Notes under the pieces: model-generated
Told to the model about the DNA's origin: nothing
Databases searched by the model: none
The model's input: only the letters and a program-made list of their open reading frames with translations
Assembly (NCBI RefSeq): GCF_020010925.1
Contig: NZ_JAGJBZ010000001.1
Coordinates: 186,001 to 250,000 of the forward strand
Direction of reading: 5' to 3'
DNA: 64,000 bases
Source: Streptomyces griseiscabiei
GTDB lineage: Bacteria; Actinomycetota; Actinomycetes; Streptomycetales; Streptomycetaceae
Shown: piece after piece, positions 26,674 through 49,686 of the stretch
How positions within the stretch are numbered: position 1 is the first letter of the stretch
Layout of the letters: each line of letters opens with the position of its first letter
Position numbers and translations under genes: made by a program

Positions 26674-26743
26674 GGCCCCCAACAGGGGGTTGACGGCCGC
26701 CACGCCCACCCTCCACCATCACGGCGTCATAGATATCAGGTAC

Positions 26744-26757
26744 TGAATGGATATTCA
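26744..26757. promoter_or_regulatory. Operator copy 2, TGAAT-GGAT-ATTCA
   Basis: A second perfect TGAAT-N4-ATTCA palindrome ends three bases before the transketolase ATG at 26761, where a bound repressor would also block translation initiation signals. It mirrors copy 1 across the divergent region. Confidence 0.7.
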
Positions 26758-26760
26758 CGA

Positions 26761-28616: not shown

Positions 28617-30112
28617 CGCCCGCTCCGCTCCTTGTCGCCGTCGACCAGGGGACCTCCGCGACCAAGGCCCTGCTGATCGACGGCGCCGGGTCCGTCGTGG
28701 GCTCGGCGTCCGTACCTATCGGCGCCGCCCACCCGCACCCCGGCTGGGTGGAGCAGTCCGCCGAGGAGATCTGGCGCAGCGTGACCCGGGCCGTCGAGGT
28801 GTGCCTGGCCGGCCGGGACGGCACCCAGGTGGCCGGCATCGGCGTGTCCAGTCAGCGGGAGTCGTGCCTGCTCTGGGAACGGTCCTCCGGACAGCCGCTC
28901 GGCCCGGTGCTCGGCTGGCAGGACCGCCGCACGGCTCCCGCCTGCGCCGAGCTGCTCGCCGAAGGAGTCGGCCCGTTCGTCCGCACGACGACCGGCCTGC
29001 CCCTGGACCCGATGTTCACCGCTCTGAAGGCGCGGTGGCTCCTCGACACGTACGACCCTGACCGCACCCGGTCCCTGCGCGGCGAACTGTGCCTGGGCAC
29101 CGTCGACTCCTGGCTGCTGTGGAAGCTGAGCGGGCACACCGACCACCTCATCGAGATCGGCAACGCCTCCCGCAGCCAGCTCCTCGACCTACGCACCCGG
29201 CACTGGGACGAACGACTCCTGGACATCTTCGGCGTACCCCGTGAGGTGCTGCCCCGGATCATGGCCTCGACGGGCCCCTTCCCCGCCGTACGAGGGCTGT
29301 CGGCGGTGCCGGACGGCACCCCGGTCGGCGCCGTCCTGGGCGACTCCCATACCGCCCTCTTCGGTCACGGCGTCCGCGCACCCGGCACCGTGAAGGTGAC
29401 GTACGGCACCGGCTCGTCCGTCATGGGTCTGGTCGACACCCCGACACAGGCGGAAGACTCGCTCCTCTGTCTGACCATCGCCTGGGACGACGGCACACCC
29501 GCCTATGCCCTGGAAGGAAACATCCGCTCCTCCGGTGCCACACTGCGCTGGCTCGCCGGCCTGTTCGGCACCGACGAGGCCGACCTCGCCGCACGGGCGG
29601 CGCCGGACGCCGCGGGCGTGCACCTCGTCCCGGCCTTCGGCGGACTCGGCGCGCCCTGGTGGGACAACGAGGCCACCGGGCTCGTCTGTGGACTCACCTT
29701 CGCGGCGGGCCTGCCCGAACTCGCCCGGGCCGCCCTCGAGTCCATCGCCTTCCAGGTCGAGGACGTCGTGGCCGGGCTCGACGCCCCGGGCGCCCCGGTC
29801 ACCACCCTGCTCGCCGACGGTGGCCCCACCGGCAACGCGACGCTCATGCAACTGCAGGCGGACATCTCGGGACGGACCCTGCACCGCCCCCGTGCCCGCG
29901 CCATGTCCGCCCTGGGCGCGGCACACCTCGCGGGCCGCTCCCTCGGACTGCTCTCCAAGGAGGACCTGAGCGCTGCGACGGGTGCGGCGGACCTCTACCA
30001 CCCCCAGTGGTCGCCCGCACGGCGCGCCCACCGTCTGAGCGCCTGGCACGAGGCGGTGTCACGGGCGAGGACGACCTCCACGGCGGCGCCGGGCACGGAG
30101 CTGTCGCCATGA
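28613..30112 (+). CDS. FGGY-family carbohydrate kinase
   Basis: This 499-residue ATP-dependent kinase has the two actin-like domains of the FGGY family. N-terminal phosphate loop region: VAVDQGTSATKALLIDGAG, then GWVEQSAEEIW and LGWQDRRTAPACAEL. In the second half come VGAVLGDSHTALFGHGV, VKVTYGTGSSVMGL and FGGLGAPWWDNEATG. The N-terminus is glycerol-kinase-like, but such sequences also occur in erythritol, xylulose and apulose kinases. Between the transketolase and SorC genes, with ATGA overlaps at both ends, it most likely phosphorylates the ketose made by the divergent isomerase. Confidence 0.88.
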   Translation: MTPAPLLVAVDQGTSATKALLIDGAGSVVGSASVPIGAAHPHPGWVEQSAEEIWRSVTRAVEVCLAGRDGTQVAGIGVSSQRESCLLWERSSGQPLGPVLGWQDRRTAPACAELLAEGVGPFVRTTTGLPLDPMFTALKARWLLDTYDPDRTRSLRGELCLGTVDSWLLWKLSGHTDHLIEIGNASRSQLLDLRTRHWDERLLDIFGVPREVLPRIMASTGPFPAVRGLSAVPDGTPVGAVLGDSHTALFGHGVRAPGTVKVTYGTGSSVMGLVDTPTQAEDSLLCLTIAWDDGTPAYALEGNIRSSGATLRWLAGLFGTDEADLAARAAPDAAGVHLVPAFGGLGAPWWDNEATGLVCGLTFAAGLPELARAALESIAFQVEDVVAGLDAPGAPVTTLLADGGPTGNATLMQLQADISGRTLHRPRARAMSALGAAHLAGRSLGLLSKEDLSAATGAADLYHPQWSPARRAHRLSAWHEAVSRARTTSTAAPGTELSP

Positions 30113-32436: not shown

Positions 32437-33321
32437 TCAGGAACAGTCGTACGTGAAGCGGGCGGTGGCCGAGCGCGGGTCGGCCGAGAGGATGCGCAGT
32501 TCGGCCTGTGCCGAGCGGTGTCCCTCGCCCTGGAAGGTCCACCGCAGGTGCACACGTGCCTGACGCTGTCCCCGGACCACCACCTCCTCCAGGACGCCCG
32601 AGCGCGTGCCGTCGCTTCGGATCCAGCGGTAGGAGAACGTGCCGGGTCGGCCGTTCGTCGCGACCACGGCGACGATGTCCGCGGTGCTGTCGCACTTCAG
32701 GACCGTGGGCCTGGCGGTGACCGTCACCGTGCCGACCTCGAGACGCGGTCCCAGCCGCTGCCAGGCCAGGAAGGCGAGGACGGCGAGGAGGACCAGTACG
32801 GGCAGCGCGTGTCGGCGCAGTCGTCGGCGCCGGGGTACTCGTGGCGTCGGGAGGGCGGGCAGTGTGCGGTGGGTTCGCTGCGCGACGACGTTGGTCACGC
32901 CGGGGCCGAAGCGCAGCAACGTGCCGTCGATGCGATCGGGCGGCGTCGCCCCGTTCACCGCGGCTGTGGAGGGCTGTTCGACGGTCTCCTCGGCGACGGT
33001 CGCTTCGGCGAGGGTCGGTTGGACGACGGTCGGTTCGGCGAGGGTCTCGTCGGGTTCGGGTCGCTGGATCCAGTGGCTGGCCAGCACGGTGGCGCTGTAC
33101 TCGGCGTCGGCCGTGCCCGCGCCCGCCTCGGCACCGGGGACGCGACCGGAGCCGGCATGCGGGGTGGAGCCCAGGAAGAGGGTGGGGGCGGACTCGTGGG
33201 CGGCCGGAAGAACCAGGGTGGGCTCGCCCGCCTCGACGAGCGTGGGCTCGTCGGTCTCCGTGAGCGTGGGCTCGACGGCCCCCGCCGGCCGGGGTGTCCG
33301 GTCCTCGTCGTACGCGGTCAT
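32437..33321 (-). CDS. Single-pass membrane protein with Thr-rich EPTL tail, partner of the Ser/Thr kinase
   Basis: This 294-residue protein has three parts. The cytoplasmic N-terminal half is acidic and carries repeated EPTL/EPTV motifs: Thr19, Thr27 and Thr35 are exactly eight residues apart, with more (APTLFL, EPTVVQPTLAEATV) downstream. Next come a basic stretch (RRRRLRR) and one helix near residues 169-186 (LPVLVLLAVLAFLAW). The C-terminal domain is a predicted beta-sandwich with two cysteines (TVLKCD; TYDCS end). ATG 33321 overlaps the kinase stop as ATGA, so the two are made together. The threonine repeats look like phosphorylation sites for the kinase. No family name is known to me. 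Confidence 0.75.
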   Translation of the reverse strand: MTAYDEDRTPRPAGAVEPTLTETDEPTLVEAGEPTLVLPAAHESAPTLFLGSTPHAGSGRVPGAEAGAGTADAEYSATVLASHWIQRPEPDETLAEPTVVQPTLAEATVAEETVEQPSTAAVNGATPPDRIDGTLLRFGPGVTNVVAQRTHRTLPALPTPRVPRRRRLRRHALPVLVLLAVLAFLAWQRLGPRLEVGTVTVTARPTVLKCDSTADIVAVVATNGRPGTFSYRWIRSDGTRSGVLEEVVVRGQRQARVHLRWTFQGEGHRSAQAELRILSADPRSATARFTYDCS

Positions 33322-34973
33322 CCGATGACACACCGTCTGGTCAGGAGCTGCTGCGAGGCGCCGCCGTCGGCGGCGGTCGGGGTGGTCGTGGCCTGCACCG
33401 ACCAGTAGCAGCCGGTACCGCGGAAGGTGTGGTCGACGGTGAGGGTGTACCGGGTGGCGCCGCTGCGTTCGAAGGTCTGGGACACGCCGTCCGGGGTACC
33501 GAACCGCCCTGGCGCGTCGCCTACGGACCACGAGACGGTGAGGGAGATCGGTCCGGTGCCGTCCGTGACGACGTCGATGGTCGCCGTGGCGGTCGCCGGA
33601 CCGGTCTGCCGGAAACCCGACACCGAGACGTCCTTGACGGCGGGGGCGGTGACCGGCGCGGGGGACGTCGTCGTCGGTGGCGGGGTGGTGGTCGCGCCGC
33701 CCGGCTCGGTCGTGACCGTGCTCCCGTCCGTGGTCACGGTGGACGAGGGCTCACCGGTGGGGGTGAGCGCGGTGTCCGACGGCGACGGGGTGGGAGAGGA
33801 CGACTCGCTCGCCGAGTCGGTGGGTGTCGGGGACGAGGAAGCGGAAGCGGAGTCCGTCGGCGCCGGGGGTGCCGCCGTCTGTGTGCTCCCCTCGGCACTG
33901 GTGGTGGCGAGGGCCTGGGCGACCTGCCCGGTGTCGGCTCCGGGGGCGTGCTGGAGGCCGAAGGTGAGGACGGCTCCGAGGAGCAGTGCGGCACCGGAGA
34001 CGAGCATGCCGGAGGGGCCGGGCAGCCACGCCTGGGCGCCGCCGCGGCCCGGCTCCTGGCGCAGCACCGTGCGGGCGGTGTCCGTGGTGGTCCTCGGGTC
34101 GCCGTGGGCCGAGGGCAGCAGCAGCGGCAGCAGGGCCACCAGCGCGGCGAGCCGCCCACGGCCGCGTTCCTCCCAGTCGGGCCCGTAGCCGGCGAGGGCC
34201 GCCGCCTCCAGTTCCCCGACGAACTCCTCGGCCTGCGCGGGCCGTTCCTCCGGGTCCTTCGCCAGACCTCGGCGCACCAGCTCACGGACCGCTTCCGGTA
34301 CCTCGTCGGCGGGGACGGGCGCGTCGACATGCTGCAGCGCCAGAGCCGCCATGTTGTCGCCGCGGTAGGGCTTGTGGCCCGTGAGGCACTCGAAGAAGGT
34401 GGCGGCGGCCGCGTACACGTCGGCCGCCGGAGAGGCGGGCGCGCCGGTCCACTGCTCGGGGGCCATGTAGGAGGGGGTGCCCGCCACACCGGCTCTGGTG
34501 CCCGCGTCCACCGCGATACCGAAGTCGACCAGCTTGGAGGACCCGTCCGGCGCGACCAGGACGTTCTCGGGCTTGTAGTCGCGGTGGACGACACCGACGC
34601 GGTGCGCGTCCGCCAGACCGAGCAGTGATCCCTTGAGGATGACGAGCGCGGCCTCCGGGCCGAGCTCGGCCTCCCGCCGCAGTACGGCGCGCAGCGAGAC
34701 ACCGTCCACCAGTTCCATCACGATGGCGGCGCCGTCCGGGCTCTCCACGTACTCGTACAGCTCGGTGACGAAGGGGCTCTCCAGCCCGCCGAGCAGCCGG
34801 GCCTCGGCCCGGAAGTCACGGACGAAACCCGGCCGGGTGCACAGCGACTCGCTGAGGTACTTCACGGCCACCGGCACACCGGTCTCCTCGTGCACGGCGA
34901 GGACCACCCGCCCGCTCGCCCCCGACCCGAGCACGAACGACTCGGTGTATCCGGGCAACGCCCATGTGTTCAT
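33318..34973 (-). CDS. Transmembrane Ser/Thr protein kinase (Hanks type)
   Basis: This 551-residue receptor-like kinase has a cytoplasmic catalytic domain (residues about 9-270) with glycine loop LGSGASGRVV, catalytic lysine in VAVKYL, HRDYKPEN, DFGIA and APEQW. A linker and one transmembrane helix (MLVSGAALLLGAVLTFGL, about residue 350) follow, then a Ser/Thr/Pro-rich stalk. The C-terminal extracellular beta-sandwich carries two cysteines (GTGCYWSV; TRRCVIG). No PASTA repeats are present, so the sensor differs from PknB. The extracellular domain resembles that of the coupled downstream protein. The stimulus is unknown. Confidence 0.92.
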   Translation of the reverse strand: MNTWALPGYTESFVLGSGASGRVVLAVHEETGVPVAVKYLSESLCTRPGFVRDFRAEARLLGGLESPFVTELYEYVESPDGAAIVMELVDGVSLRAVLRREAELGPEAALVILKGSLLGLADAHRVGVVHRDYKPENVLVAPDGSSKLVDFGIAVDAGTRAGVAGTPSYMAPEQWTGAPASPAADVYAAAATFFECLTGHKPYRGDNMAALALQHVDAPVPADEVPEAVRELVRRGLAKDPEERPAQAEEFVGELEAAALAGYGPDWEERGRGRLAALVALLPLLLPSAHGDPRTTTDTARTVLRQEPGRGGAQAWLPGPSGMLVSGAALLLGAVLTFGLQHAPGADTGQVAQALATTSAEGSTQTAAPPAPTDSASASSSPTPTDSASESSSPTPSPSDTALTPTGEPSSTVTTDGSTVTTEPGGATTTPPPTTTSPAPVTAPAVKDVSVSGFRQTGPATATATIDVVTDGTGPISLTVSWSVGDAPGRFGTPDGVSQTFERSGATRYTLTVDHTFRGTGCYWSVQATTTPTAADGGASQQLLTRRCVIG

Positions 34974-34995
34974 CCCAGCCCCCAAGACCGCCGTG

Positions 34996-35018
34996 CGCCA
35001 GAGCCCCGCCCTCTGGCG
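34996..35018 (-). other. Stem-loop in the 5' leader of the kinase gene
   Basis: Arms CGCCAGAG (34996-35003) and CTCTGGCG (35011-35018) with a 7-base loop lie about 23 bases before the kinase start codon. It could affect translation or mark the end of an upstream transcript. Confidence 0.5.
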
Positions 35019-35092
35019 AACCACCACATCGCGCGATGAGAGACACATATTCAGCCACATCGGTTGCGGAAAACCATCCCCCGAGCGGCAAG

Positions 35093-35131
35093 CCGCCGGG
35101 AAGGGACCACCGTCCCGGAATCTCCCGGCGG
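35093..35131 (-). terminator. Nested hairpin after the IclR gene
   Basis: Outer arms CCGCCGGGA (35093-35101) and TCCCGGCGG (35123-35131) enclose an inner GGGAC/GTCCC stem. It begins 27 bases past the IclR stop codon and would end that transcript before the kinase gene. Confidence 0.6.
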
Positions 35132-35158
35132 TCACGTGACAGGAAGGTGGGGCGCGTC

Positions 35159-35968
35159 CTACCGGCCCGTGGCGCCGTCGTCGACGGAGCCCGCCAGGGC
35201 GGCGGCGGCCGTGGTGAGGGCGGTTCGCATCGTGCGCTCGCGGGAGAGCAGGTCCTGCTGTCTGCCGACGACGGACACGGCCGCGCGGATACGGCCGCCG
35301 GTGTCGCGCACGGGTACGGCGTACTCGGTGACGCCGTGCTCGAACTCGCCGTGCGCGGCGACGACGCCGCGCAGACGGTCGCGGTCGTTGGCGGCGGCCA
35401 GTTCCCCGGCGGAGTGGGCGGCGTTGGGACCGCCGACGCCGATCAGCTCGTAGTCGTCGAGCAGGGTGGAGATCTCCTCGGCGGTGTGGTCGAGGAGGAG
35501 CGCGCGGCCCGCGCCGGTGCACCAGCACGGCGTGACGAGGCCCGCTCGGCCCTGCCACTCCCTGGCGAAGTCCGCGGCGGACTCGGCACGCAGCAGCCTG
35601 ACCTGGACGCCGTCGCGGACGGAGAGACGTGCGCCCACGCCGTGTTCGACGGCGATACGGCGCAGGAGCGGGCGGCTGCGGCGGAGCAGGCCGGGGTGCA
35701 GGGAGGCGGCGGCGGTGAAGAAGGCGTCGCCGACGCGCAGGGTCGAGTCGTCGCGGCGTTCGAGGAAGCCCTTGTCGCAGAGGTCCTGCGTGGTACGTGA
35801 CGCCTTGCTGCGCTCGACTCCGACCTCGTCGGCGAGCCTGCTGACGTTGAAACCGGTCCGGCCGGAGGCTTCGCGGTCCAGCACGGTGTTGACCATGCGC
35901 AGGGCCATCCGCAGTGAGGAGGCCGCCCCCAGGCCCGTCTGTCCGCTTGAGGGGCCGTTCGTCGTCAC
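35159..35968 (-). CDS. IclR-family transcriptional regulator
   Basis: This 269-residue regulator starts at GTG 35968. The winged-helix N-terminus is FNVSRLADEVGVERSKASRT, with the effector domain from about residue 90: VGARLSVRDGVQVRLLRAE, and CWCTGAGRALLLDHTAEEI followed by the C-terminal VTEYAVPVRDTGGRIRAAVSV. Overall this is standard IclR length. It is divergent from the homoserine-dehydrogenase-like operon across 248 bases that hold a CGCATG-G-CATGCG palindrome, so it most likely controls that operon. The effector is unknown. Confidence 0.88.
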   Translation of the reverse strand: MTTNGPSSGQTGLGAASSLRMALRMVNTVLDREASGRTGFNVSRLADEVGVERSKASRTTQDLCDKGFLERRDDSTLRVGDAFFTAAASLHPGLLRRSRPLLRRIAVEHGVGARLSVRDGVQVRLLRAESAADFAREWQGRAGLVTPCWCTGAGRALLLDHTAEEISTLLDDYELIGVGGPNAAHSAGELAAANDRDRLRGVVAAHGEFEHGVTEYAVPVRDTGGRIRAAVSVVGRQQDLLSRERTMRTALTTAAAALAGSVDDGATGR

Positions 35969-36216: not shown

Positions 36217-37314
36217 ATGACCCGATACGACCTGGCGCTCATCGGATTCGGCGGGGTGAACCGAGCGCTCGCCGAGCTGATCGCCGACCGCGGGGACGCC
36301 CTGGAGGCCGAACTCGGCTTCGCCCTGCGGGTGGTGGCCATCACCGATCTGCGGGCCGGATCGCTCGTCCGCACGGACGGCGGCGGCGTCGATCTGGCGG
36401 GGCTGCTCGCGGTGGCGCCCGGTGAGCTGGACTTCTCGGCGTGGGAGGGCGGCAGCCCGGAGCCCCGCAACGAGTGGGTGATCCGTGAGGTGCCCGCCGA
36501 CATCGTCGCCGAGGCCACCTTCACCAACCCCTCGGACGGGGAGCCCGCGCTGTCGCACGTGCGGTGGGCCGTCGAGGCCGGCAAGCACGTGTGCACCACC
36601 AACAAGGGCCCGGTCGCCCTGCACGGGCGGGCGCTGAAGGAGCTGGCACGGCGGCACGGGGTGTCCTTCGAGTTCGAGGGCACCGTGATGTCGGGCACCC
36701 CCGTGCTGCGCACCGCCCGCCGGATGTTCGGCGGGCTGTCCGTGCACGGCTTCGAGGGAATCATGAACGGCACCTCCAACTACGTCCTGGGCCGCCTGGA
36801 GTCGGGGCTGTCCTTCGCGGAGGCCGTCGCCGAGGCCCAGGCCCTGGGCTACGCCGAGGCCGACCCGACGGCCGACATCGAGGGCCATGACGTCCAGCTG
36901 AAGGTCGTGATCCTCGCCAACGAGGTGCTCGGCGCCGACCTGCGGCGCGCGGACGTGCCCTGCACCGGTCTGTCCGCCCTCACCCCCGACGACGTCCGCC
37001 GGGCGGCGGCCGAGGGACTGCGCTGGAAGCTGGTCGGCTCCGCCGCCCGGCGCCCGGACGGCACGGTGGACGCGCGGGTCGCGCCGGTCGCGCTGCCCGC
37101 CGGGCACCCCCTGGCCGGCGTCGCCGGCCCCGGCAACGCCATCGCCTTCCACACCGACCCGCTGGGCACCGTCACCGTCGGCGGCCCGGGAGCGGGACGC
37201 GTCGAGACGGCGTACGCCCTGCTGTCCGACGTCATCGGCATCCACGAGCAGACCGTCGCGGGCGCGGTCCCCGGAGCCGGCACCGAGATCCTCGCGGAGG
37301 CCCACCGTGTCTGA
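36217..37314 (+). CDS. Homoserine dehydrogenase-like oxidoreductase without ACT domain
   Basis: This 365-residue NAD(P)-dependent enzyme has the N-terminal nucleotide-binding motif [17 protein letters not shown]. The homoserine dehydrogenase signature region is intact: [13 protein letters not shown], then [36 protein letters not shown] and a lysine in [11 protein letters not shown]. Biosynthetic homoserine dehydrogenases are longer and end in a threonine-sensing ACT domain. Here the protein stops without one, which fits a catabolic, feedback-free enzyme oxidising L-homoserine to aspartate 4-semialdehyde. AAGGAGGAGG precedes the ATG. The downstream aldehyde dehydrogenase overlaps it by eight bases. 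Another beta-hydroxy acid substrate is possible. Confidence 0.85.
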
Positions 37315-38743
37315 CACCACCGTCCTGAGCTCCCGTCCGGCCTCCCCCGAGCGGGTCGGCGACGGCATGGCCGCCGTGCGCGACCCCTACAGCGGCGAGA
37401 CCATCGGCTCGGTGTGTCTCACCCCGGCGTACGCCGTGGACGACGTCATGCGGCGGGCCCGCGCGGGGCGGGAGACCGCCCGCCGGCTCTCCCGGGCCGC
37501 CCGTGCCGCCGTGCTCGACGGGGCGGCCCGGCTGATCGAGGAGCGTGCCGAGTCGTTCGCCCGGCTGATCGTCGCCGAGGCCGGCAAGACCCTCGTCCAG
37601 GCCCGCAAGGAGACCGGTCGCGCCGTCAACACGCTGCGGCTGTCGGCCGCCGAGGCGCGCCGCAACGCGGGCGAGGTGGTGCCGTTCGACGCCTTCGCGG
37701 GCTCGGAGGGGCGCCTCGGCTGGTTCACACGCGAGCCGCTGGGCGTGATCGCGGCCGTCACGCCGTACAACGACCCGCTCAACCTCGTCGCGCACAAGCT
37801 CGGGCCGGCGATCGCCGGCGGCAACGCGGTCGTGCTCAAACCGTCGCTGCTCGCCCCGCTGTCCGCGCTGCGGCTGGTCGACACCCTGGTGGAGGCCGGG
37901 CTGCCGGAGGAGGTGGTGACGGTCGTCAACGGAGGCGCCGAGCTGGGCGCCGCCGTGGTGTCCGCGCCGGACGTGCGCATGGTGTCCTTCACCGGCGGCT
38001 TCCGCACCGGTGAGACCATCGCGCGGTCGGCGGGGCTGAAGAAGCTGGCCATGGACCTGGGCGGCAACGCCCCGGTCGTCGTGCTGGCCGACGCCGACCT
38101 GGACGCGGCGGTGGAGGCGTGTGTGTCCGGCGCGTTCTGGGCGGCCGGGCAGAACTGCATCGGCACCCAGCGCATCCTGGTCGAGCGCGAGGTGTACGCG
38201 GCGTTCCGGGACGCCTTCGTGGCGCGGACCCGGCGGCTGCGTGCCGGGGACCCCGCGGACGGCGGCACCGACGTCGGCCCCATGATCGACGAGCGGGCCG
38301 CGCGGGCGGCCGAGGCCATGGTCGCCGCCGCGCTCGCCGAGGGCGCCCGGCTGCTGTGCGGACACGAGCGCCGCGGCAGTCTGTACGCGCCGACCGTGCT
38401 GGAGGACGTGCCGGACACGTCCTCGGTCCGGCGGGAGGAGGCGTTCGCGCCCGTCGTGGTGCTGCAGGCCGTCGACTCCTTCGAGGAGGCCGTGGAGCGG
38501 GCCAACGAGATCGACTTCAGCCTGCACGCGGGCGTGTTCACCGCCTCCCTGGACCGGGCGATGGACGCGGCCCGGCTGCTGGACGCCTCCGGCGTGATGG
38601 TCAACGACTCGTCCGACTACCGGTTCGACGCGATGCCCTTCGGCGGCTTCAAGTACGGCAGCATGGGCCGCGAGGGCGTGCGCTTCGCCTACGAGGAGAT
38701 GACCCAGCCGAAGGTGGTCTGCCTCAACAGGGAGCCGGTGTGA
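37307..38743 (+). CDS. NAD(P)-dependent aldehyde dehydrogenase, aspartate-semialdehyde oxidation candidate
   Basis: This 478-residue enzyme is of the succinate-semialdehyde/phosphonoacetaldehyde dehydrogenase type. Visible: substrate-entry motif [19 protein letters not shown], cofactor loop FTGGFRTGE, catalytic Cys284 in [10 protein letters not shown], and C-terminal [10 protein letters not shown]. The residue 34 positions before the cysteine, usually the general-base Glu of the ELGG motif, is Asp250 (MDLGGN). The GTG start lies inside the previous gene and the stop overlaps the aspartase start, so all three enzymes are coupled. In this order it would oxidise aspartate 4-semialdehyde directly to L-aspartate without phosphate. 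Substrate is inferred from the operon. Confidence 0.87.
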
Positions 38744-40218
38744 GCGAGTTCGACGCCGGGCGGGTCGTGAGCGCGGACGGCTCCGAGGCGCGGACGGAGA
38801 CCGGCGCCGGGTCGCGGACCGGTACCAGTACCGGCACCGGGTTCCGGATCGAGACCGACGCGCTGGGGGACGTGGCGGTTCCCTCGGGGGCGTACTGGGG
38901 TGCGCACACCGCTCGGGCCCTGGAGAACTTCCGCGTCAGCGGGGTCCCCGTCTCGGTCCATCCCCATCTCGTGCGCGCGCTGGCCCAGGTGAAGCACGCC
39001 GCGGCGCTGGCCAACGGTGAGATCGGGGTGCTGGAGCCGCACAAGGTGCGGGCCGTCGCGGCGGCCTGCCGGGCCGTCGCGGAGGGCCGGCACCATGACC
39101 AGTTCGCCGTGGACGTCGTCCAGGGCGGTGCGGGCACCAGCACCAACATGAACACCAACGAGGTGATCGCGAACCTCGCCCTGGAGCACCTGGGTCACCC
39201 GCGCGGACGGTACGAGCACCTGGACCCGCTCGACGACGTCAACCGCTGCCAGTCCACCAACGACACCTATCCCACCGCCCTGCGGATCGCGATCAGTGCG
39301 TCGCTGTCCGAGCTGAGTACCGAACTCACCTTGCTGGCGGCCGAGTTCGCGGCCAAGGGCGAGGAGTTCGCCACGGTGGTGAAGGTGGGGCGGACCCAGT
39401 TGCAGGACGCCGTGCCCATGACGCTGGGCCGGGAGTTCGCGGCCTTCGGTGTGACGCTCACCGAGGACGTCGCCCGGATCGGCGAGACGCTGCCGCTGCT
39501 GGCCGAGACCAGCCTCGGCGCGACGGCGATCGGCACGGGCATCGCCGCCGAACCGGGCTACGCCGCCGCGGTCGTACGGCATCTGCGGGCGCTGACCGGG
39601 CTCGACGTGACACCGGCCGCGGACCTGGTGGAGGCCACCTCGGACACGGGTGTGTTCCTGCTGGTGTCGGGGGTGGTGAAGCGGACGGCGGTGAAGCTGT
39701 CGAAGGTGTGCAGCGATCTGCGGCTGCTCGCCAGCGGACCGCGTGCGGGCCTCGCGGAGATCGGCCTGCCGCCGCGCCAGGCCGGTTCGTCGGTCATGCC
39801 GGGGAAGGTGAACCCGGTGATCCCCGAGATGGTCAACCAGATCGCGTTCGCGACCGTCGGCGCGGACGTCTCCATCACCATGGCCGCCGACAACGGACAG
39901 TTGCAGCTGAACGCGTTCGAGCCGCTGATCGGGCATCTGCTGCTGCAGCACATCGTCTGGCTGGCGCGCGGCTGCTCCGCGCTGCGCACGCTGTGCGTGG
40001 CGGGTGTCACCGCCAACCGGGAGCACCTCGCGCGCGGGGCCGCCCACGCGGTGGGCGCGGCGACGGCGCTCGCCCCGCACATCGGGCACGAGGCGGCCGC
40101 GGAGGTGGCCCGGCAGGCGTCGCGGACCGGCACCGACCCGATCGAAGTCGCCGTCGCGCGCGGTCTGCTGGAGCGGGAGACCGCGCTGCGGATCATGGCT
40201 GCCGCTGCCGCCGGCTGA
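38740..40218 (+). CDS. aspA: Aspartate ammonia-lyase
   Basis: This 492-residue enzyme eliminates ammonia from L-aspartate to give fumarate. It belongs to the fumarase/aspartase superfamily: [21 protein letters not shown], the [20 protein letters not shown] motif, [29 protein letters not shown] and the signature [19 protein letters not shown]. The [11 protein letters not shown] ending favours aspartase over class II fumarase, which usually has VNPTQ. Start GTG 38740 overlaps the previous stop (GTGA). Residues 13-30 are a Thr/Gly/Ala/Ser-rich insertion not seen in typical aspartases. The end overlaps the convergent Lrp gene by 26 bases. It closes the proposed homoserine-to-fumarate route. Confidence 0.9.
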
Positions 40219-40639
40219 CGACCCGGGACAGCGCCAGCGCTGTCACCGTGTCCCGTACACCGGGCATCTGGGCGATCTGCTCCCAGATGCCCTGTACGCG
40301 TTCCAGGGAGCCGGCCTCCACACTGACCAGCAGGTCGAACTGGCCGCTGAGGACATCGCAGGAGACCACCTCGGGGATGCGTTTGAGGGCGGCGAGGACG
40401 TCTCCGCCGCGCAGCCGGTCCTCCCGGTAGACCAGGACGTGCGCGGCCACCGCGGCCCGGTCCGGCCCGCAGGACGGGCGGACGATGGTGTAGCCGCCGA
40501 TGTGTCCCTGCCGTTCCAGGCGCTCGACGCGCTGGCGTACGGCGTTGCGGGACAGCCGTACGCGCTGGCCCAGTTCGGCGTGGGAGATCCGGGCGTTGCG
40601 GGTGAGTTCGGTGATGATCTGCTCGTCGATGGAGTCCAT
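40193..40639 (-). CDS. Lrp/AsnC-family transcriptional regulator
   Basis: This 148-residue regulator has an N-terminal helix-turn-helix (LTRNARISHAELGQRVRLSR) and a C-terminal RAM ligand-binding domain (VVSCDVLSGQFDLLVSVEAG). Length and layout are standard for amino-acid-responsive Lrp proteins. It converges on the aspartase gene with overlapping ends and sits downstream of the cyclase/permease operon behind a strong hairpin, so it probably has its own promoter or depends on read-through. It may sense the amino acid handled here. Confidence 0.9.
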   Translation of the reverse strand: MDSIDEQIITELTRNARISHAELGQRVRLSRNAVRQRVERLERQGHIGGYTIVRPSCGPDRAAVAAHVLVYREDRLRGGDVLAALKRIPEVVSCDVLSGQFDLLVSVEAGSLERVQGIWEQIAQMPGVRDTVTALALSRVVSRRQRQP

Positions 40640-40719: not shown

Positions 40720-41493
40720 TCAGCCCTCGTGGTGCAGGGCGAAGACGCGGGCCGGGAAGCCCGAACCGCCCTGCGGCTTGGGCCAGGTGGCGACGATCAG
40801 GGCGCCCGCCTCGGGTACCCGGTCGAGGCCTGCCATCAGCTCGATCTGCCAGCGGTCGCGTTCCAGGACGTAGCTCTCCAGGCTGAAGTCGCCCGCCGAG
40901 GTGGCCGATCCGGGGTCGGTGTCGGTCTGCTCGTGCCCGATCGCGGTGACGCCGGCCTCCTCGAAGAGGTGGCGCAGGACGTCCGCCGACCAGCCGGGGT
41001 AGTGGCTGACGCCCGCCTCGTCCTTGTTGGCCATGGCGGCCGGGTCGGGCCAGCGGTGGCTCCAGCCGGTCCGCAGGGCGACGAACGCCCCCTCGGGAAT
41101 ACGGCCGTTGCGGGCCTCCCAGGCCTCGATGTCGTCCAGGGTCGGTACGGCGTCGGGGTCGGCGGCGACGCGGTCGCTGATGTCGAGGACGACGAGCGGG
41201 AGGATCATCTCGTCGACGGGGATCTCGTCCAGGGTCCGGGCGCCGTCGACGAAGTGCACGGGCGGGTCGACGTGGGTGCCCCACTGGCCGACGATCGTGT
41301 AGAGGTGCACGTTGAAGCCGTCGCCGCGGGACATGTCGAAGGGCATCTCGCGCTTCTCGTCCGGGAAGGCGGGGAAGTGCGGCTGACCGGGGTGGAAGGC
41401 GTGGGTGAGGTCGGTGCGGACCGTCCTGTCCATCAGTTCCCGGTGCAGGGCCCACAGCGGCGGTACGGCGGTGGTGACCGTGTTCGGTGTCAT
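40720..41493 (-). CDS. Cyclase family protein (kynurenine formamidase-like hydrolase)
   Basis: This 257-residue metal-dependent hydrolase has the family motif WGTHVDPPVHF (H-x-G-T-H-x-D variant with the first residue Trp-Gly-Thr-His). Also seen are TDLTHAFHPGQPHFPAFP near the N-terminus, ALRTGWSHRW and GHEQTDTDPG in the middle. Members hydrolyse N-formylkynurenine, isatin or other amides and lactones. ATG 41493 overlaps the HAD gene stop. It is the last gene of an operon with an amino-acid permease and HAD phosphatase. A role on an amino-acid amide or lactone is plausible but unproven. Confidence 0.82.
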   Translation of the reverse strand: MTPNTVTTAVPPLWALHRELMDRTVRTDLTHAFHPGQPHFPAFPDEKREMPFDMSRGDGFNVHLYTIVGQWGTHVDPPVHFVDGARTLDEIPVDEMILPLVVLDISDRVAADPDAVPTLDDIEAWEARNGRIPEGAFVALRTGWSHRWPDPAAMANKDEAGVSHYPGWSADVLRHLFEEAGVTAIGHEQTDTDPGSATSAGDFSLESYVLERDRWQIELMAGLDRVPEAGALIVATWPKPQGGSGFPARVFALHHEG

Positions 41494-42185
41494 GCGTGCT
41501 CGTCCTCTGTCTCGGCTGTCTCGGTGTGGTGCGACAGGTCCATCAGTCGGGCCAGTTGGGCCGGTTCGGCGACGGAGGCGACCGCGCCGGCCGACTCCGC
41601 CGGGCCGCCGTACCCCCACCGCACATGGACGGCGGGGATCCCTTCGGCGGCGGCACTCTCGATGTCGTAGGCGCGGTCGCCGACCATGAGCGGCCGGCGG
41701 ACGTCGGTGCCTCCGGCCCGCAGCCGGGCGAGGCACTCCCGGATCACCAGCCGTTTCGTCGTACGGCCCGCCTCGTCGCAGACACCGCAGACGGTCCGCA
41801 GCCGGGAGTCGAGGCCGAAGCGGCGCGCCATCAGTTCCGCCTGGTCCTGCACCTTGGAGGTCGCGATGCCCATGGGGAGGCCGCGCGCGGCCAGGGCGTC
41901 GAGCAGTTCGGGTATGCCGTCGTACAGCGTGGCGGCGGACGCGCCGTCGCGGGCGTACGCGGCGCGGTAGGCGGCGAGGGCGGCCCGCGCGGCGGGCTCG
42001 TCGAGGCCGACGACCCGGCGGAAGGTGTCGTACATCGGCGGGCCGACGAACCCGCGCAGGGTGGGGGCGTCGGGGACCGGGGCGCCGACGGCCCGCAGGG
42101 CCTCGGCGGCGCTGGCGGTCACTCCGGGGGCGGAGTCGACCAGGGTGCCGTCGAGGTCCAGCAGGAGGCAGGTGGGCGGCTTCAC
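41490..42185 (-). CDS. HAD-superfamily hydrolase, phosphoglycolate phosphatase-like
   Basis: This 231-residue phosphatase has all HAD motifs: LLLDLDGTLVDSAPG (nucleophile Asp and acid Asp), GIATSKVQ (motif II Ser/Thr), a lysine in RTTKRLVI and MVGDRAYDIESAAA (motif IV acids). The cap sequence resembles Gph/PpaX-type enzymes with broad specificity. Start GTG 42185 overlaps the permease stop, and its stop overlaps the cyclase start. Substrate not predictable; perhaps housekeeping or a phosphorylated intermediate of this locus. Confidence 0.87.
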   Translation of the reverse strand: MKPPTCLLLDLDGTLVDSAPGVTASAAEALRAVGAPVPDAPTLRGFVGPPMYDTFRRVVGLDEPAARAALAAYRAAYARDGASAATLYDGIPELLDALAARGLPMGIATSKVQDQAELMARRFGLDSRLRTVCGVCDEAGRTTKRLVIRECLARLRAGGTDVRRPLMVGDRAYDIESAAAEGIPAVHVRWGYGGPAESAGAVASVAEPAQLARLMDLSHHTETAETEDEHA

Positions 42186-43627
42186 GCGGCCGCGCCGGAG
42201 GTACGGCGACGGCCGTGCCGCAGCCAGTGGTACAGGTAGCAGCCGGCGACGAACGGGACGCCGAAGTACAGGGCCGTGGCCTGCGCCGGGTCCAGCGCGA
42301 TTCCGACGAGCGAGCCGAGGCACAGGGCGAAGGCGAGCACGGGCACCACCGGGTAGAAAGGTGTCCGGTACGGAAGGGTGGCCGGGTCCCCTCCCCCGCG
42401 GACGAAGGCCCGCCGGTGGAAGAACTGCGCGGCGACGATGGACATCCAGACCCCGACCGCGGCGAATCCGGCGATCGACACCAGCACCAGATAGACCGTC
42501 TCGGGCGCGGCGACGCTGCTCACCAGGGAGGCCAGACCGCCGAGCATGCTGAGCGAGAGCGCGGTGAGGGGGATGCCACGGCGGCTGAGGCGGCGCAGCG
42601 CCTGCGGTGCCTGCTTCTCCTGGGCGAGGGAGAAAAGCATGCGGGCACAGGAGTACAGGCCGCTGTTGCCGGCCGACAGCAGCGCGGTGATGATCACGAA
42701 GTTCATGACGTCGGCGGCGTAGGGGATGCCGATGGAGGAGAAGACCGTGACGAACGGGCTCTCGTCCAGGCCGACTTCGTCGTACGGGATGGTCGCGGCG
42801 ATCACCGTGATCGCGCCGACGAAGAAGATCAGCAGCCGGATGACGGTGACGCGCAGGGCCTTGGGCACGGCCTGGGCGGGGTTCTCGGTCTCGCCGGCGG
42901 CGACGCCGATCAGCTCGGAGCCGGAGAAGGCGTAGAACGCGGCGAGCACGGTGACCAGGACGCCCGAGAAGCCGTTCGGGAACAGACCGTCCGAGGTGGT
43001 GAAGTTCTCCAGCAGGAACGGGTGGGAGCCGCCGTCGGCTAGGGGGTGGAAGCCGGCCAGGGCGGCGCCGCCCAGGACGATGAGGGCGACCACGGCGACG
43101 ACCTTGACCAGCGAGAACCAGTACTCGGTCTCGCCGAAGACGCGGGCGGAGAAGGCGTTCACCGCGAAGACGACGGCGGCGAAGACCACGCACCAGATCC
43201 AGACGTCGACGCCGGGGAACCAGCGCCGCATCAGCAGCCCGCACGCGGTGAACTCGGAGCCGAGGGCGACGGCCCAGGTCAGCCAGTACAGCCAGGCGGT
43301 GGCGAAGCCCGTGGCGGGGCCGATCGCGCGGGTGGCGTAGATGTGGAAGGCGCCGGAGACGGGGTAGGTGACGGCGAGTTCACCGAGGCAGGTCATCACC
43401 AGCCAGACGACGAACGCGCCCACCAGGTAGGCGAGGACGGCGCCGAGCGGGCCCGCCTGGGAGACGGTGAATCCGGAGCTGAGGAAGAGCCCGGAGCCGA
43501 TGACACCACCCATGGCGATCATGACGAGATGCCGGGAACGCATGGTGCGGCGCAGGCCGTCGCCGGGCGGCTGGGGGGTGGGGTCGGCGGTGGCCGGAGC
43601 GTTCTCCGGTACGGCTGAGACGGACAT
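42182..43627 (-). CDS. Amino acid permease (APC family, GABA/D-Ser/Ala-His type)
   Basis: This 481-residue, roughly 12-helix secondary transporter imports an amino acid. The N-terminus after a short tail reads GLRRTMRSRHLVMIAMGGVIG, the classic APC entry motif, followed by SGLFLSSGFTVSQAGP. Further along come CLGELAVTYPVSGAFHIYAT and FSGSELIGVAAGETENPAQA. ATG 43627 was chosen because AGAGGAGACC precedes it; a longer frame upstream is unlikely. It belongs to a minus-strand operon with HAD and cyclase genes, close to the homoserine/aspartate enzymes, and may be the uptake system for their substrate. Confidence 0.9.
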   Translation of the reverse strand: MSVSAVPENAPATADPTPQPPGDGLRRTMRSRHLVMIAMGGVIGSGLFLSSGFTVSQAGPLGAVLAYLVGAFVVWLVMTCLGELAVTYPVSGAFHIYATRAIGPATGFATAWLYWLTWAVALGSEFTACGLLMRRWFPGVDVWIWCVVFAAVVFAVNAFSARVFGETEYWFSLVKVVAVVALIVLGGAALAGFHPLADGGSHPFLLENFTTSDGLFPNGFSGVLVTVLAAFYAFSGSELIGVAAGETENPAQAVPKALRVTVIRLLIFFVGAITVIAATIPYDEVGLDESPFVTVFSSIGIPYAADVMNFVIITALLSAGNSGLYSCARMLFSLAQEKQAPQALRRLSRRGIPLTALSLSMLGGLASLVSSVAAPETVYLVLVSIAGFAAVGVWMSIVAAQFFHRRAFVRGGGDPATLPYRTPFYPVVPVLAFALCLGSLVGIALDPAQATALYFGVPFVAGCYLYHWLRHGRRRTSGAAA

Positions 43628-43799: not shown

Positions 43800-44279
43800 T
43801 CAGGCCCGGGAGACGAGGTCCAGCGGGGCGGAGAGTTCGATCACCGGGATCTCCCAGGGGTGAGCGTCGGTGAGGCGGGCGAGCACCCGGGCCAGGTCGT
43901 CGTCGTCCGCCTCGGCGTCGATGTACGTGGTGACGGCGAGGGTCGAGGAGAGGAACCGTCCGCCGACCGAGCCGAGGGAGGGGCGGGCGCCGGGCCGGAC
44001 GGTGAAGCCCTCGGCGCCGAGGGCCACCTCGAAGACGTCGCCGTAGACGCCGAAGTCCCCGAGTTCGGGCGAGGCCTCCACGACCCGCAGCAGCGAGGCG
44101 AAGGACTCGTCGGCGCGCAGCGCGTCGAGGTCGCCCTCCGCGCACGCGGCCAGGGTCGCGGTCTCGACCGGCCAGTACACCTTGACCGTGCGGACGGTCC
44201 GGCGCCGGACGGGGGCCGGGGCGGCCTCCCGCTCCTCTCCGGCGGCTCCCGGTGTGATCGTCGTCGTGGCCATGCGCAT
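43800..44279 (-). CDS. Small hypothetical protein with CutA/NIF3-like C-terminal motif
   Basis: This protein is about 159 residues (ATG 44279; ATG 44273 possible, both close to GAGGGA). The N-terminal 25 residues are low-complexity. Then come VKVYWPVETATLAACAEGDL, a central EASPELGDFGVYGDVFEVAL and a C-terminal LTDAHPWEIPVIELSAPLDL. The His-Pro-Trp-Glu-x-Pro motif resembles the HPYExP element of CutA and NIF3/YqfO ferredoxin-like folds, which suggests a trimeric or dimeric alpha/beta barrel that may bind metal. Resemblance is limited to that motif. It is the first gene of the permease operon and faces an IclR gene. Confidence 0.55.
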   Translation of the reverse strand: MRMATTTITPGAAGEEREAAPAPVRRRTVRTVKVYWPVETATLAACAEGDLDALRADESFASLLRVVEASPELGDFGVYGDVFEVALGAEGFTVRPGARPSLGSVGGRFLSSTLAVTTYIDAEADDDDLARVLARLTDAHPWEIPVIELSAPLDLVSRA

Positions 44280-44322
44280 CTGTCCCTCGGTGCTCGGCGG
44301 CGGCTGATGCGTGGATGGTAGG

Positions 44323-44341
44323 CCGTGCATTAAATGCACGG
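44323..44341. promoter_or_regulatory. 19-bp perfect palindrome, candidate IclR operator
   Basis: CCGTGCATT-A-AATGCACGG has 9-base arms around one base. It lies in the 181-base region between the divergent small-protein gene and the IclR gene, about 44 bases from the former's start codon. Its length makes chance unlikely. Confidence 0.7.
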
Positions 44342-44346
44342 CAAGA

Positions 44347-44359
44347 TGCAGATGCTGCA
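44347..44359. promoter_or_regulatory. Second palindrome TGCAG-ATG-CTGCA
   Basis: It lies six bases from the previous palindrome and shares the TGCA core. The pair looks like adjacent binding sites for one regulator, probably the neighbouring IclR protein. Confidence 0.5.
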
Positions 44360-44460
44360 CAATTCCGAGAAGCTCGTGCGGGCGGCGATACAGTGCGGAC
44401 CGACAGTCACGTCGGTCGGCACCCCGGGCGACCGCACACGTCGGCACGGCGGAGGAACAC

Positions 44461-45222
44461 GTGGACTCGAGCGTGACCAAGGGGCTGGACGCCCTGTCGG
44501 AACTCGCCGGCACGGCCGGCGGCCATCGCGACGGCGCCGCCGCATCCGTCTCGGAGCTGGCCCGGCAGATGGGACGCGACCGCAGCCAGCTGTCCCGCAT
44601 GGTCACCGCCATGGCCGCGGAGGAGTTCGTCGTCCGCGACGACGTCTCGGGTGGTGTCGCACCGCACTGGCGGCTCTACACGGCGGCACGCGACCTCACG
44701 GCGCACCGGCTGCGCACGGACGGGCTCACCGCCCTGGAGGGCATGGCCGCCGAGACCGGCGAGAGCTGCTACCTCGGCGTCCTGGTCGGCGACACCACCG
44801 TGACCATCGCCGAACGGGTGCCCCAGGGCAGCCGTCAGCTCGGCTCATGGATCGGCCGCCCCTACCCGGCCTACTGCAGCGACTGCGGCCAGGCTCTGCT
44901 CAGCGACGCCGACGACGACGAGGTGACCGCCGTCCTCGCCCGCACCGACTTCGTCCGCCACGGCCCCAACACACCCACCGACCTGGACGACTTCCTGCGC
45001 CGGCTGGAGGTGACCCGGCAGCGCGGCTACTCCGTCGTCGACGAGGAGGCCGAACCGGGCCTGTACTCGGTCGCGGTGCCGGTCCGCGACTTCACCGACG
45101 AGGTCGTCGCCGCCGTGCAGGTCGTCGGCCCGCGACGACGCCTGGAACCCAGGACGCGGGAGTGCGTGGCCGCCGCCCTGCGCTGGGGACGCCACCTGGA
45201 GACGGCCCTGCGCGGCGCCTGA
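44461..45222 (+). CDS. IclR-family transcriptional regulator
   Basis: This 253-residue protein starts at GTG 44461 with GGAGG five bases upstream. Helix-turn-helix: SVSELARQMGRDRSQLSRMV, and VVRDDVSGGVAPHWRLYTAA as the wing/linker. Effector domain: TGESCYLGVLVGDTTVTIAE, YPAYCSDCGQALLSD and YSVVDEEAEPGLYSVAVPV. Divergent from the permease operon with a long palindrome between, so it should control that operon and itself. Second IclR gene in the amino-acid region. Confidence 0.88.
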   Translation: MDSSVTKGLDALSELAGTAGGHRDGAAASVSELARQMGRDRSQLSRMVTAMAAEEFVVRDDVSGGVAPHWRLYTAARDLTAHRLRTDGLTALEGMAAETGESCYLGVLVGDTTVTIAERVPQGSRQLGSWIGRPYPAYCSDCGQALLSDADDDEVTAVLARTDFVRHGPNTPTDLDDFLRRLEVTRQRGYSVVDEEAEPGLYSVAVPVRDFTDEVVAAVQVVGPRRRLEPRTRECVAAALRWGRHLETALRGA

Positions 45223-45315: not shown

Positions 45316-46347
45316 TCATGCCTCGTGCCGTGCGGCAGGGGGCTGTTCTCCCGAGCCGCGGCTGATCAGCCGGGTGGGGACGGTGACGGTGCGGGTGCGG
45401 GAGCGGTCGCCGTCGAGGCGGGTCAGGGCGGTCGCCGCGGCCGCTTTGCCGATCTCCTCGGGGTTCTGGGCGACGACGGTCAGGGCCGGTTCGAGGGCCT
45501 CGGCGAGCGCCACGTCGTCGAAGGCGACGACCGCCACGTCCTTGCGTCTGCTGCGGGCGAGTTCGCTGACCACGCCCAGGGCGACGATGTTGTTGCCGGC
45601 GAACAGCGCGGTGGGAGGATCCGCCAGGTCCAGGAGCTGGGATGTGGCGACCGAAGCACCGTGCTGGTCATGGGCGTTCATGACCAGCGCGCGGTCATGG
45701 GCCAGGCCCGCCTCCCGCAGGGCGTCCCGGTAGCCGGCCAGCCGCTCGCGGCGGGTGTACAGCTTCGTCGGCAGGTCGCCGACGAAGCCGATGCGCCGGT
45801 GTCCGTGGGCGATCAGATGGGCGACGCCGTCGTGCGCGCCCGTGCGGTTGGTGCTGACGACGCTGTCCGTGGTCAGTCCCGCTCCCGGCCGGTCGAGGAA
45901 GACGATGGGCAGCCCGGCGTCGCGATGGGACTTGAGGTGGGCGTGGTCCGCGCCGACGGACGGCACGACCATGAGGATGCTGATCCGGCGGGCGAGGAAC
46001 TTGTCCGTCAGGGCGCGTTCGCGGTCGGGGTCGTCCGCGGACGATCCCATGAGCAGGGTCAGGCCGCGGTTGCCGACCGTGTCCTCGATGCCCCGGGCCA
46101 CGGCCCCGAAGAAGGGGTTGCCGAGTTCGGGGATGACGAGTCCGACGGTGGTGTCGGGGCCGCCGACACGGATGTTGCGTGCCATCAGGTTCGGCTGGAA
46201 GCCCAGCCGGGCCACGGCGGCGAGCACCTGTTCCCTGGTCTGCGCGGAGGCGGGTCCGTCCTCGTTGAGGACACGGGAGACGGTCTTTGCGCTGACTCCC
46301 ACTTCCCGGGCGACATCGGCCAGGGTGGGGCGGCGGTTCGCTGCCAT
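45316..46347 (-). CDS. LacI-family regulator of the fructose/fructan regulon
   Basis: This 343-residue repressor has N-terminal DNA-binding domain RPTLADVAREVGVSAKTVSR followed by the hinge-helix region (ARLGFQPNLMARNIRV). The sugar-binding core includes LVIPELGNPFFGAVARGIED, IVFLDRPGAGLTTDSVVSTN and VAVVAFDDVALAEALEPALT. It is the last gene downstream of the sugar ABC importer genes, behind a 10-bp hairpin. Candidate operators are the 25-bp motifs at 49505-49529 and 50737-50761, before the importer/kinase pair and the secreted GH32 gene. The inducer is probably fructose or a derivative. Confidence 0.88.
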   Translation of the reverse strand: MAANRRPTLADVAREVGVSAKTVSRVLNEDGPASAQTREQVLAAVARLGFQPNLMARNIRVGGPDTTVGLVIPELGNPFFGAVARGIEDTVGNRGLTLLMGSSADDPDRERALTDKFLARRISILMVVPSVGADHAHLKSHRDAGLPIVFLDRPGAGLTTDSVVSTNRTGAHDGVAHLIAHGHRRIGFVGDLPTKLYTRRERLAGYRDALREAGLAHDRALVMNAHDQHGASVATSQLLDLADPPTALFAGNNIVALGVVSELARSRRKDVAVVAFDDVALAEALEPALTVVAQNPEEIGKAAAATALTRLDGDRSRTRTVTVPTRLISRGSGEQPPAARHEA

Positions 46348-46372
46348 GGAGGAAACGGTCTCCTTGCTCGTC

Positions 46373-46400
46373 GGTTCCGGCCTGGGCCTCGGCCGGAACC
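46373..46400 (-). other. Intercistronic hairpin between ATPase and LacI genes
   Basis: Arms GGTTCCGGCC (46373-46382) and GGCCGGAACC (46391-46400) with an 8-base loop would reduce read-through into the regulator gene. Confidence 0.6.
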
Positions 46401-46419
46401 CGTAGCTGCTGAAGGTTGG

Positions 46420-48266: not shown

Positions 48267-48339
48267 GCGAGGTCCTTGTCGGAAGACAGAGGTCGTCGCC
48301 CGCGCTGATCGGAGACGATCGGCGGACAGGAGGACGGGC

Positions 48340-48376
48340 GGGCGGCCGTCCCGATCGAGGGAAGGGACGGCCGCCC
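48340..48376 (-). other. Strong intercistronic stem-loop after the binding-protein gene
   Basis: Perfect 13-base arms GGGCGGCCGTCCC (48340-48352) and GGGACGGCCGCCC (48364-48376) with an 11-base loop. Such structures between binding-protein and permease genes protect the upstream message and lower downstream expression. Confidence 0.75.
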
Positions 48377-48416
48377 CGCTGAGAGGTGAGGCTGTCGTAC
48401 GGCCTCAGGGGGCGGC

Positions 48417-49439: not shown

Positions 49440-49504
49440 GAACGACTCCTGTGGGATAGCGGGCGGCACAGGGCAGGGTGCGGGCATGCCGCCCCCGGTG
49501 TCAC

Positions 49505-49529
49505 CGTTGACTTATGTCATCGTTGACAC
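49505..49529. promoter_or_regulatory. LacI operator A of the fructan regulon
   Basis: The 25-base motif begins CGTTGACTTATGTCA and contains the perfect palindrome TGTCA-TCGT-TGACA at 49515-49528. It aligns to operator B (50737-50761) at 21 of 25 positions. It sits between the divergent binding-protein and kinase genes. Confidence 0.75.
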
Positions 49530-49686
49530 TGCATGGCGAGGATGATGGACTCCGTCTCCCGGCAACGTCAATGCCTTCCGCCCGTCACAAATCGGCAACG
49601 CCCCGCAGCCGCCGGTCACCGGCCGGGAGGAGGCAGGCGTGCGCCCCGCCCCGTGTGCCCGTCCCACCGCGAGAGAAGAGCCGCAC

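Follow-up and report, generated by a model that had tools for sequence, protein, structure and literature searches.

Catabolism of homoserine to fumarate in three steps is already known from rhizobia and canavanine users. A homoserine utilisation cluster of the Rhizobiales is said to have been described by Vanderlinde in 2014, and in Hauth's work of 2022 a canavanine gamma-lyase reportedly frees homoserine, with a homoserine dehydrogenase (HSD), an aspartate-semialdehyde dehydrogenase and an aspartase (AspA) being induced. The HSD gene of the rhizobial plasmid pRL8 (pRL80071) is described as induced in the pea rhizosphere, and PMC10228743 reports that the short HSD family that includes the pRL80071 orthologue oxidises homoserine. 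Here, we analyse a stretch of 64,000 nucleotides from the 10.6 Mb genome of Streptomyces griseiscabiei (C1:186001-250000, hereafter the window), in which an operon of HSD, aldehyde dehydrogenase (ALDH) and AspA genes occupies positions 36217-40218. The window has a GC content of 71%, its nearest named relatives are Streptomyces and its HSD is 93% identical to that of S. stelliscabiei. The occurrence in Streptomyces is an extension of the known homoserine route; what is new is its setting, a locus with another kind of importer and with two unexplained proteins in close linkage.

A coupled operon of HSD, ALDH and AspA

36217-37314, + strand: HSD, homoserine dehydrogenase without ACT domain, 365 aa (family models, tree, orthology)
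37307-38743, + strand: ALDH, non-phosphorylating, presumed aspartate-semialdehyde dehydrogenase, 478 aa (PF00171)
38740-40218, + strand: AspA, aspartate ammonia-lyase, 492 aa, from a GTG start at 38740 whose exact position is uncertain (family models)

The initial annotation had described these genes as coupled in this order, and so they are: HSD and ALDH overlap by 8 bp, and ALDH and AspA by 4 bp when counted from GTG 38740. The start of AspA is the least certain, as its first 33 residues lie outside the family match; an annotated relative on the NBC_00826 plasmid likewise has an ALDH/AspA overlap of 4 bp. HSD passes the NCBIfam model PRK06270 (433 bits, cut-off 373) and contains the Pfam domains Homoserine_dh and NAD_binding_3, the latter slightly below its cut-off. 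A domain scan of the protein confirmed that it has no regulatory ACT domain, an absence that we take to be typical of the short catabolic HSD type of A. nicotinovorans and pRL80071, and the stretch TTNKGP and another of 20 residues, both presumably catalytic, are kept. ALDH belongs to PF00171 and carries the motif MDLGGN, found in 75 of the 81 aligned rows; the other 6 have Glu in place of Asp, Glu being the residue expected of an ALDH at this site. With 652 bits, AspA exceeds the cut-off (510) of NF008909, the subfamily model for aspartate ammonia-lyase, and bears a stretch of 19 residues that we take to be an aspartase-type signature.

As judged from the sequences, the operon very probably serves catabolism, leading from homoserine through aspartate semialdehyde and aspartate to fumarate. 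HSD would oxidise L-homoserine to L-aspartate 4-semialdehyde with NAD(P), ALDH would convert this to L-aspartate in an irreversible step that would pull the unfavourable HSD step forward, and AspA would split aspartate into fumarate and ammonia. We infer every substrate and reaction direction of the three enzymes, while gene order, overlaps, families, conservation and orthology are direct observations. The homoserine-to-fumarate pathway proposed initially thus stands as the best reading, given the orthology to pRL8, the pairing of HSD with ALDH and the gamma-lyase genes near HSD in sister loci, whereas AspA turned out not to be a defining part and the route had already been described in other bacteria; nothing in our analysis shows that the homoserine comes from legume exudate, the source envisaged at the time. 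If the core alone is as we read it, a known root-associated homoserine route would also exist, as an infrequent accessory trait, in actinomycetes including Streptomyces.

The HSD of the window and the pRL8 HSD of R. johnstonii 3841 have 58.3% identity, with 94% of the window protein aligned, and there too an ALDH gene comes directly after HSD. More than half of the plasmid-borne HSD relatives are rhizobial (101 records matched; Rhizobium 37, Sinorhizobium 12, Agrobacterium 5, Mesorhizobium 3). Across the three rhizobial loci examined, the identity is 58-63% for HSD and 64-68% for ALDH, and the motif MDLGGN is common to the three ALDHs. The HSD-ALDH pair is shared with the homoserine and canavanine clusters of Rhizobiales and Pseudomonas, and the presence of AspA and an Lrp gene is as in A. 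pusense (HSD-ALDH-DapA-AspA-homoserine kinase-Lrp, with a B3/4 protein and a pyridoxal-phosphate (PLP) enzyme some genes off) and R. phaseoli (Lrp, HSD-ALDH, ABC genes, aminotransferase, AspA, phosphotransferase, Lrp). In the HSD tree the rhizobial rows group, on long branches, with the actinobacterial ones, and a second HSD from the S. griseiscabiei genome stands apart. The HSD of Arthrobacter nicotinovorans (Liang 2022, cited in PMC10228743) is likewise of the short type, its membership following a statement in that paper, and the Arthrobacter orthologues among the 80 loci introduced below are 65-71% identical to the window HSD. The second HSD, encoded elsewhere in the genome, is 38% identical; therefore, the copy at 36217-37314 is probably dispensable for biosynthesis, and a biosynthetic role for it is unlikely.

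Conservation of the core and the wider locus

For the comparison, species genomes were scanned with a 17-row HSD alignment, and the best 80 of the 435 confirmed stretches were taken as loci (L003-L082). Genes were counted as present or absent by tblastn because a simple gene caller overlooked genes in the lower-GC Arthrobacter loci; all locus and genome counts are raw, with kinship among genomes ignored. Genes downstream of HSD were counted in the 71 loci with at least 4.5 kb on that side, the other 9 being short loci. In 70 of the 71, no more than 400 bp separate HSD from a full ALDH, and the three-gene arrangement is therefore not due to chance. AspA follows within 3.5 kb in only 16, with remnants in 3 more (L003, L007, L008), and is thus no defining part of the system. 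Among the short loci, AspA comes after ALDH in L043 and L045 and upstream in L021. Most loci (67 of the 71) also encode an Lrp relative no farther than 9 kb from HSD, mostly adjoining ALDH or AspA. In a sample of 249 genomes of the same family, orthologues of HSD (E <= 1e-100) and ALDH (E <= 1e-170) occur in the identical 4 genomes and are adjacent in each, and HSD was found in 3 of the 345 genomes of a class sample. HSD-ALDH is a rare, tightly paired trait.

Several observations weigh against a catabolic homoserine pathway. PRK06270 is titled merely "homoserine dehydrogenase", with no direction implied, and none of the NCBIfam matches listed for ALDH (25 of 44) reaches its cut-off. AspA fails the aspA equivalog model TIGR00839 (576 bits, cut-off 681) and is therefore not claimed as that equivalog, two further aspartase-like genes, 56% identical, exist in the genome, and AspA is missing or a mere relic in 55 of the 71 loci. 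The inner support of the HSD tree is weak (5 of 26 branches starred), and in the near relative S. stelliscabiei (L003), the sole locus without a full ALDH, both ALDH and AspA have decayed. One could also imagine that HSD and ALDH act on some other hydroxy acid and aldehyde, with AspA as a passenger: the substrate of ALDH is unreadable from sequence and AspA is optional, but the orthology to pRL8 and the genomic context of the HSD-ALDH pair make this improbable. In S. stelliscabiei, HSD and the remaining locus are intact and much of ALDH and AspA is lost (L003, 10001-12830); the record contains another HSD-ALDH-Lrp unit (L069) at a different place.

An amino-acid permease, an Lrp gene and two IclR genes had been noted nearby, and all are present. 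Together with CYC, HAD and F12 genes, they are part of the same conserved locus as HSD-ALDH, a connection previously overlooked:

35159-35908, - strand: IclR1, first IclR regulator, divergent from HSD, assumed start ATG 35908 (family match)
40193-40639, - strand: Lrp/AsnC regulator, convergent with aspA and sharing 26 bp with its end (family match)
40720-41493, - strand: CYC, "cyclase" family metal-dependent hydrolase (PF04199) of an atypical QWGTHVDPP subfamily, candidate homoserine-lactone hydrolase
41490-42185, - strand: HAD phosphatase-like hydrolase, overlapping the CYC and permease genes (family match)
42182-43627, - strand: APC amino-acid permease of the MmuP (S-methylmethionine permease) clade (NCBIfam, identity, tree)
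43800-44273, - strand: F12, small protein without Pfam family and with a predicted PII-like fold, candidate sulfonium lyase
44324-44340, no strand: palindrome CGTGCATTAAATGCACG, putative operator between the F12 and IclR2 genes (conservation in relatives)
open reading frame (ORF) 44311-45222, + strand: IclR2, second IclR regulator, true start probably downstream of the palindrome (family match)

On the - strand from 44273 downwards, the order is thus F12, permease, HAD, CYC and Lrp, with the permease, HAD and CYC genes overlapping. These genes and the two IclR genes would probably import and prepare the substrate and regulate its use. Loci of the Arthrobacter type are rearranged: F12 and CYC are adjacent, and IclR2, IclR1, permease, HSD, ALDH, an optional AspA, Lrp and HAD follow. 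Of the 80 loci, 34 have CYC and precisely these 34 have F12, all with the permease, which is itself present in 41; MmuM is found in 16, all within the CYC/F12 set. A second sample comprised 197 genomes of the family of genome G250, Arthrobacter-like as judged from identity. HSD is present in 9 of them and CYC in 8, all among these 9 and at 1.6-4.6 kb from HSD; 5 of the 8 CYC matches contain one stop, which we take to be the alignment overrunning the gene end. The permease is present in 28 of the 197, in 8 at 0.3-3.0 kb from HSD, and G565, the one remaining genome with HSD, is without CYC and without this permease. CYC, and within the 80 loci also F12, is tied to HSD in these groups.

Compared with the clusters of rhizobia and Pseudomonas, the S. 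griseiscabiei locus has an MmuP-type APC permease in place of ABC transporters and CYC, F12, HAD and two IclR genes in addition, whereas neither a CtdA-like protein nor a close canavanine gamma-lyase candidate was found in the window or the rest of the genome. The palindrome is weak in the window alone, a match within 3 mismatches arising in 11 of 100 shuffles, and its weight rests on conservation: L003-L082 include 10 Streptomyces loci arranged in this way, and 7 of them retain the core TGCATTNAATGCA. A scan of the window for promoters and terminators found none and is uninformative at 71% GC. Immediately beside IclR1, an ORF at 33318-35558 encodes a Ser/Thr protein kinase.

The permease, CYC, HAD and F12

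What had been called an amino-acid permease is one, more exactly one nearest to the S-methylmethionine permease MmuP, being 56% identical to E. coli MmuP. Its best family is PRK11387 (S-methylmethionine permease) at 615 bits, below the cut-off of 716, and the next family scores 371. In a tree of 64 permeases, HSD-linked and stand-alone sequences and E. coli MmuP, the last on a long branch, form one clade against six paralogues from the same genome (support 100/98); outside it fall two remote permeases encoded in the flanking sequence of L063 and L080. A clade specific to HSD loci, which would favour a homoserine permease, is absent, as the HSD-linked rows interleave with stand-alone permeases. 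We fetched 10 of the 23 regions with stand-alone permeases in the G250 family; MmuM of 55-59% identity is present in 4, a homologue of 37% in 1 and none in 5. The locus resembles the mmuPM salvage system of E. coli in its permease and in the MmuM homologue in 16 of the 80 related loci, but the window has no MmuM: the one MmuM-like gene of the genome, 46% identical to E. coli MmuM, is unlinked. The genome contains no other close MmuP-type permease, the next being at 39%. Outside the window, at C1:112760-115484, two neighbouring genes of the - strand encode a relative of the permease (38%) and a PLP gamma-lyase-like protein (39%). The Microbacterium loci L070, L078 and L081 have two copies of the MmuP-type permease each, in two separate groups of the tree.

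CYC is related to the ring-opening isatin hydrolase. Proteins 56-64% identical to it from Rhizobium, Deinococcus and Allomeiothermus stand beside branched-chain-type ABC transporters in other catabolic settings, without MmuP, and a 42% relative in Lactiplantibacillus plantarum is accompanied by an APC permease that is not MmuP-like and by a methionine-synthase-like gene. HAD was considered as a dehalogenase-type enzyme displacing the sulfonium group and set aside on account of its DLDGTL motif, presumably of the phosphatase type.

For F12, a profile search against Pfam gave nothing credible, and against solved structures the top match was the NIF3-related 2gx8 (E 0.0073). The predicted fold aligns with SAM-AMP lyase 9gad over 114 residues, with PII proteins scoring equal or higher. 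F12 is PII-like by prediction and may in this resemble the phage S-adenosylmethionine (SAM) lyases T3 SAMase and Svi3-3, and a G-x-Y-x10-E pattern is conserved in it at the Svi3-3 spacing; were its conserved residues placed at random, such agreement would arise with a probability of 0.0012, the pattern having been spotted before the test. In T3 SAMase, the catalytic Glu68 lies 23 residues past the Tyr of GLY, if that Tyr is the counterpart of Tyr58, and the spacing is therefore no family rule. F12 has no sequence similarity to T3 SAMase, and homology on this basis was rejected (hhalign 0.24%, unrelated control 0.23%).

Candidate sources of homoserine and neighbouring genes

F12 and CYC share the same 34 of the 80 loci, always together with the permease and never with a gamma-lyase, which suggests that homoserine may be released from a gamma-substituted precursor, with S-methylmethionine as the best candidate. 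A PLP gamma-lyase is encoded within about 6 kb of HSD in six other loci (L042, L045, L065, L070, L078, L081), the proteins of the other five being 69-92% identical to that of L078. None of the six has CYC or F12, L045 being a short contig, and 4 have the permease. By sequence, these enzymes are of a kind that could free homoserine, and their proximity to HSD would favour homoserine as the substrate. In L042 (S. ochraceiscleroticus), a CtdA-like protein of 38% identity, the only one in the 80 loci, accompanies the gamma-lyase, and canavanine is therefore suggested as the substrate there. The HSD-ALDH pair appears to be plugged in behind differing enzymes that are able or suspected to strip the gamma substituent from a homoserine derivative. 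Against such a shared arrangement stands L056, which has the permease, IclR1, HSD, ALDH and Lrp and 10 kb of sequence on both sides, yet no CYC, F12 or gamma-lyase; no feeder was seen in its sister L059 (5.1 kb of upstream sequence), and the upstream part of L061 is too short to tell.

L056, with permease and HSD-ALDH but no feeder, and L059, which likewise shows none, would be explained if free plant homoserine were imported by the MmuP-type permease and passed directly to HSD, with CYC and F12 doing something else. We regard this as a tentative possibility: the permease sits in the MmuP clade, interleaved with stand-alone permeases of which some adjoin MmuM, and it would not account for the F12 and CYC genes that accompany the permease in 34 of its 41 loci. 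It is similarly conceivable, and held as tentatively, that S-methylmethionine is imported and split, directly or via the lactone, into dimethyl sulfide and homoserine for HSD, ALDH and AspA. The identity of the permease to E. coli MmuP, the confinement of MmuM to loci of the CYC/F12 type and the replacement of CYC/F12 by a gamma-lyase in 4 permease loci all agree with this, and PMC13209565 reports an activity in rats that hydrolyses S-methylmethionine to dimethyl sulfide and homoserine. However, MmuM and MmuP also stand side by side for ordinary methionine salvage, an MmuM homologue was found in just 5 of the 10 stand-alone permease regions (in one case at 37%), no candidate for the cleavage is encoded in L056, G565 dispenses with both CYC and this permease, and the CYC relatives of other genera adjoin ABC transporters rather than MmuP. 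In its complete form, the S-methylmethionine pathway would begin with import by the MmuP-type permease; F12, as a PII-fold lyase resembling the phage SAM lyases, would expel dimethyl sulfide by intramolecular attack and leave homoserine lactone, and CYC, as an altered isatin-hydrolase-type enzyme, would open the lactone to homoserine, which HSD, ALDH and AspA would take to fumarate. We consider this full assignment rather doubtful.

The relationship of CYC to a ring-opening enzyme would also suit a supply of homoserine lactone or acyl-homoserine from quorum signals, the lactone being opened by CYC, and the locus is found in many Arthrobacter, a genus with soil strains that use homoserine lactone (PMC5474475). 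The locus genes examined include no recognisable acylase or lactonase, though, and the permease clade does not indicate lactones, which makes such a source unlikely. Canavanine, as in Rhizobium and Pseudomonas, is more improbable still. In A. pusense, genes for a B3/4 protein and a PLP enzyme lie at a short distance from the same HSD-ALDH-AspA set, and L042 has its gamma-lyase and CtdA-like protein, but the sole B3/4 match in the S. griseiscabiei genome lies within a reading frame of 849 aa that is presumably PheT, and for gamma-lyases there are three matches, of 37-43% identity. Lacking a CtdA (B3/4) candidate and a close canavanine gamma-lyase, this genome was rejected as a canavanine user.

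If homoserine is indeed fed in from S-methylmethionine, a function would be gained for the unnamed protein family of F12 and for an atypical cyclase subfamily, along with bacterial genes for the cleavage of S-methylmethionine to dimethyl sulfide and homoserine, a land counterpart of the marine dimethyl-sulfide genes. The complete S-methylmethionine pathway, if true, would mean that dimethyl sulfide is also produced in soil by this route and that a SAM-lyase-like fold serves in cellular metabolism. Our literature search, with subscription journals largely outside it, found no description of the locus in actinomycetes, nor of S-methylmethionine catabolism via HSD and ALDH.

Some loci have HSD without an MmuP-type permease (L011, L012, L014, L032 and similar). 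They carry an AstE/AspA-type deacylase and a PdxA-like gene (Pfam, L011 copies) and, as seen by eye only, an FAD oxidase-like protein, possibly another feeder. On a Priestia megaterium plasmid (L086), a 42% HSD and an ALDH close a cluster of the ectoine/hydroxyectoine type with EutB, a cyclodeaminase and M24 and M20 peptidases.

Elsewhere in the window, ABC sugar-type transporter genes and an enolase-superfamily gene of the mandelate racemase type lie at 14692-19832 (-). At 25605-26594 (-) a xylose-isomerase-like TIM-barrel protein is encoded, and after it come, on the + strand, a gene of the transketolase N-terminal type (26527-27642) and, within ORF 27752-30112, an FGGY kinase near glycerol kinase. 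Beyond IclR2, at 45316-53392, a LacI regulator, a BPD_transp_2 permease, a sugar-binding protein, a fructokinase-like PfkB kinase and a GH32 enzyme make up a likely fructan utilisation locus.

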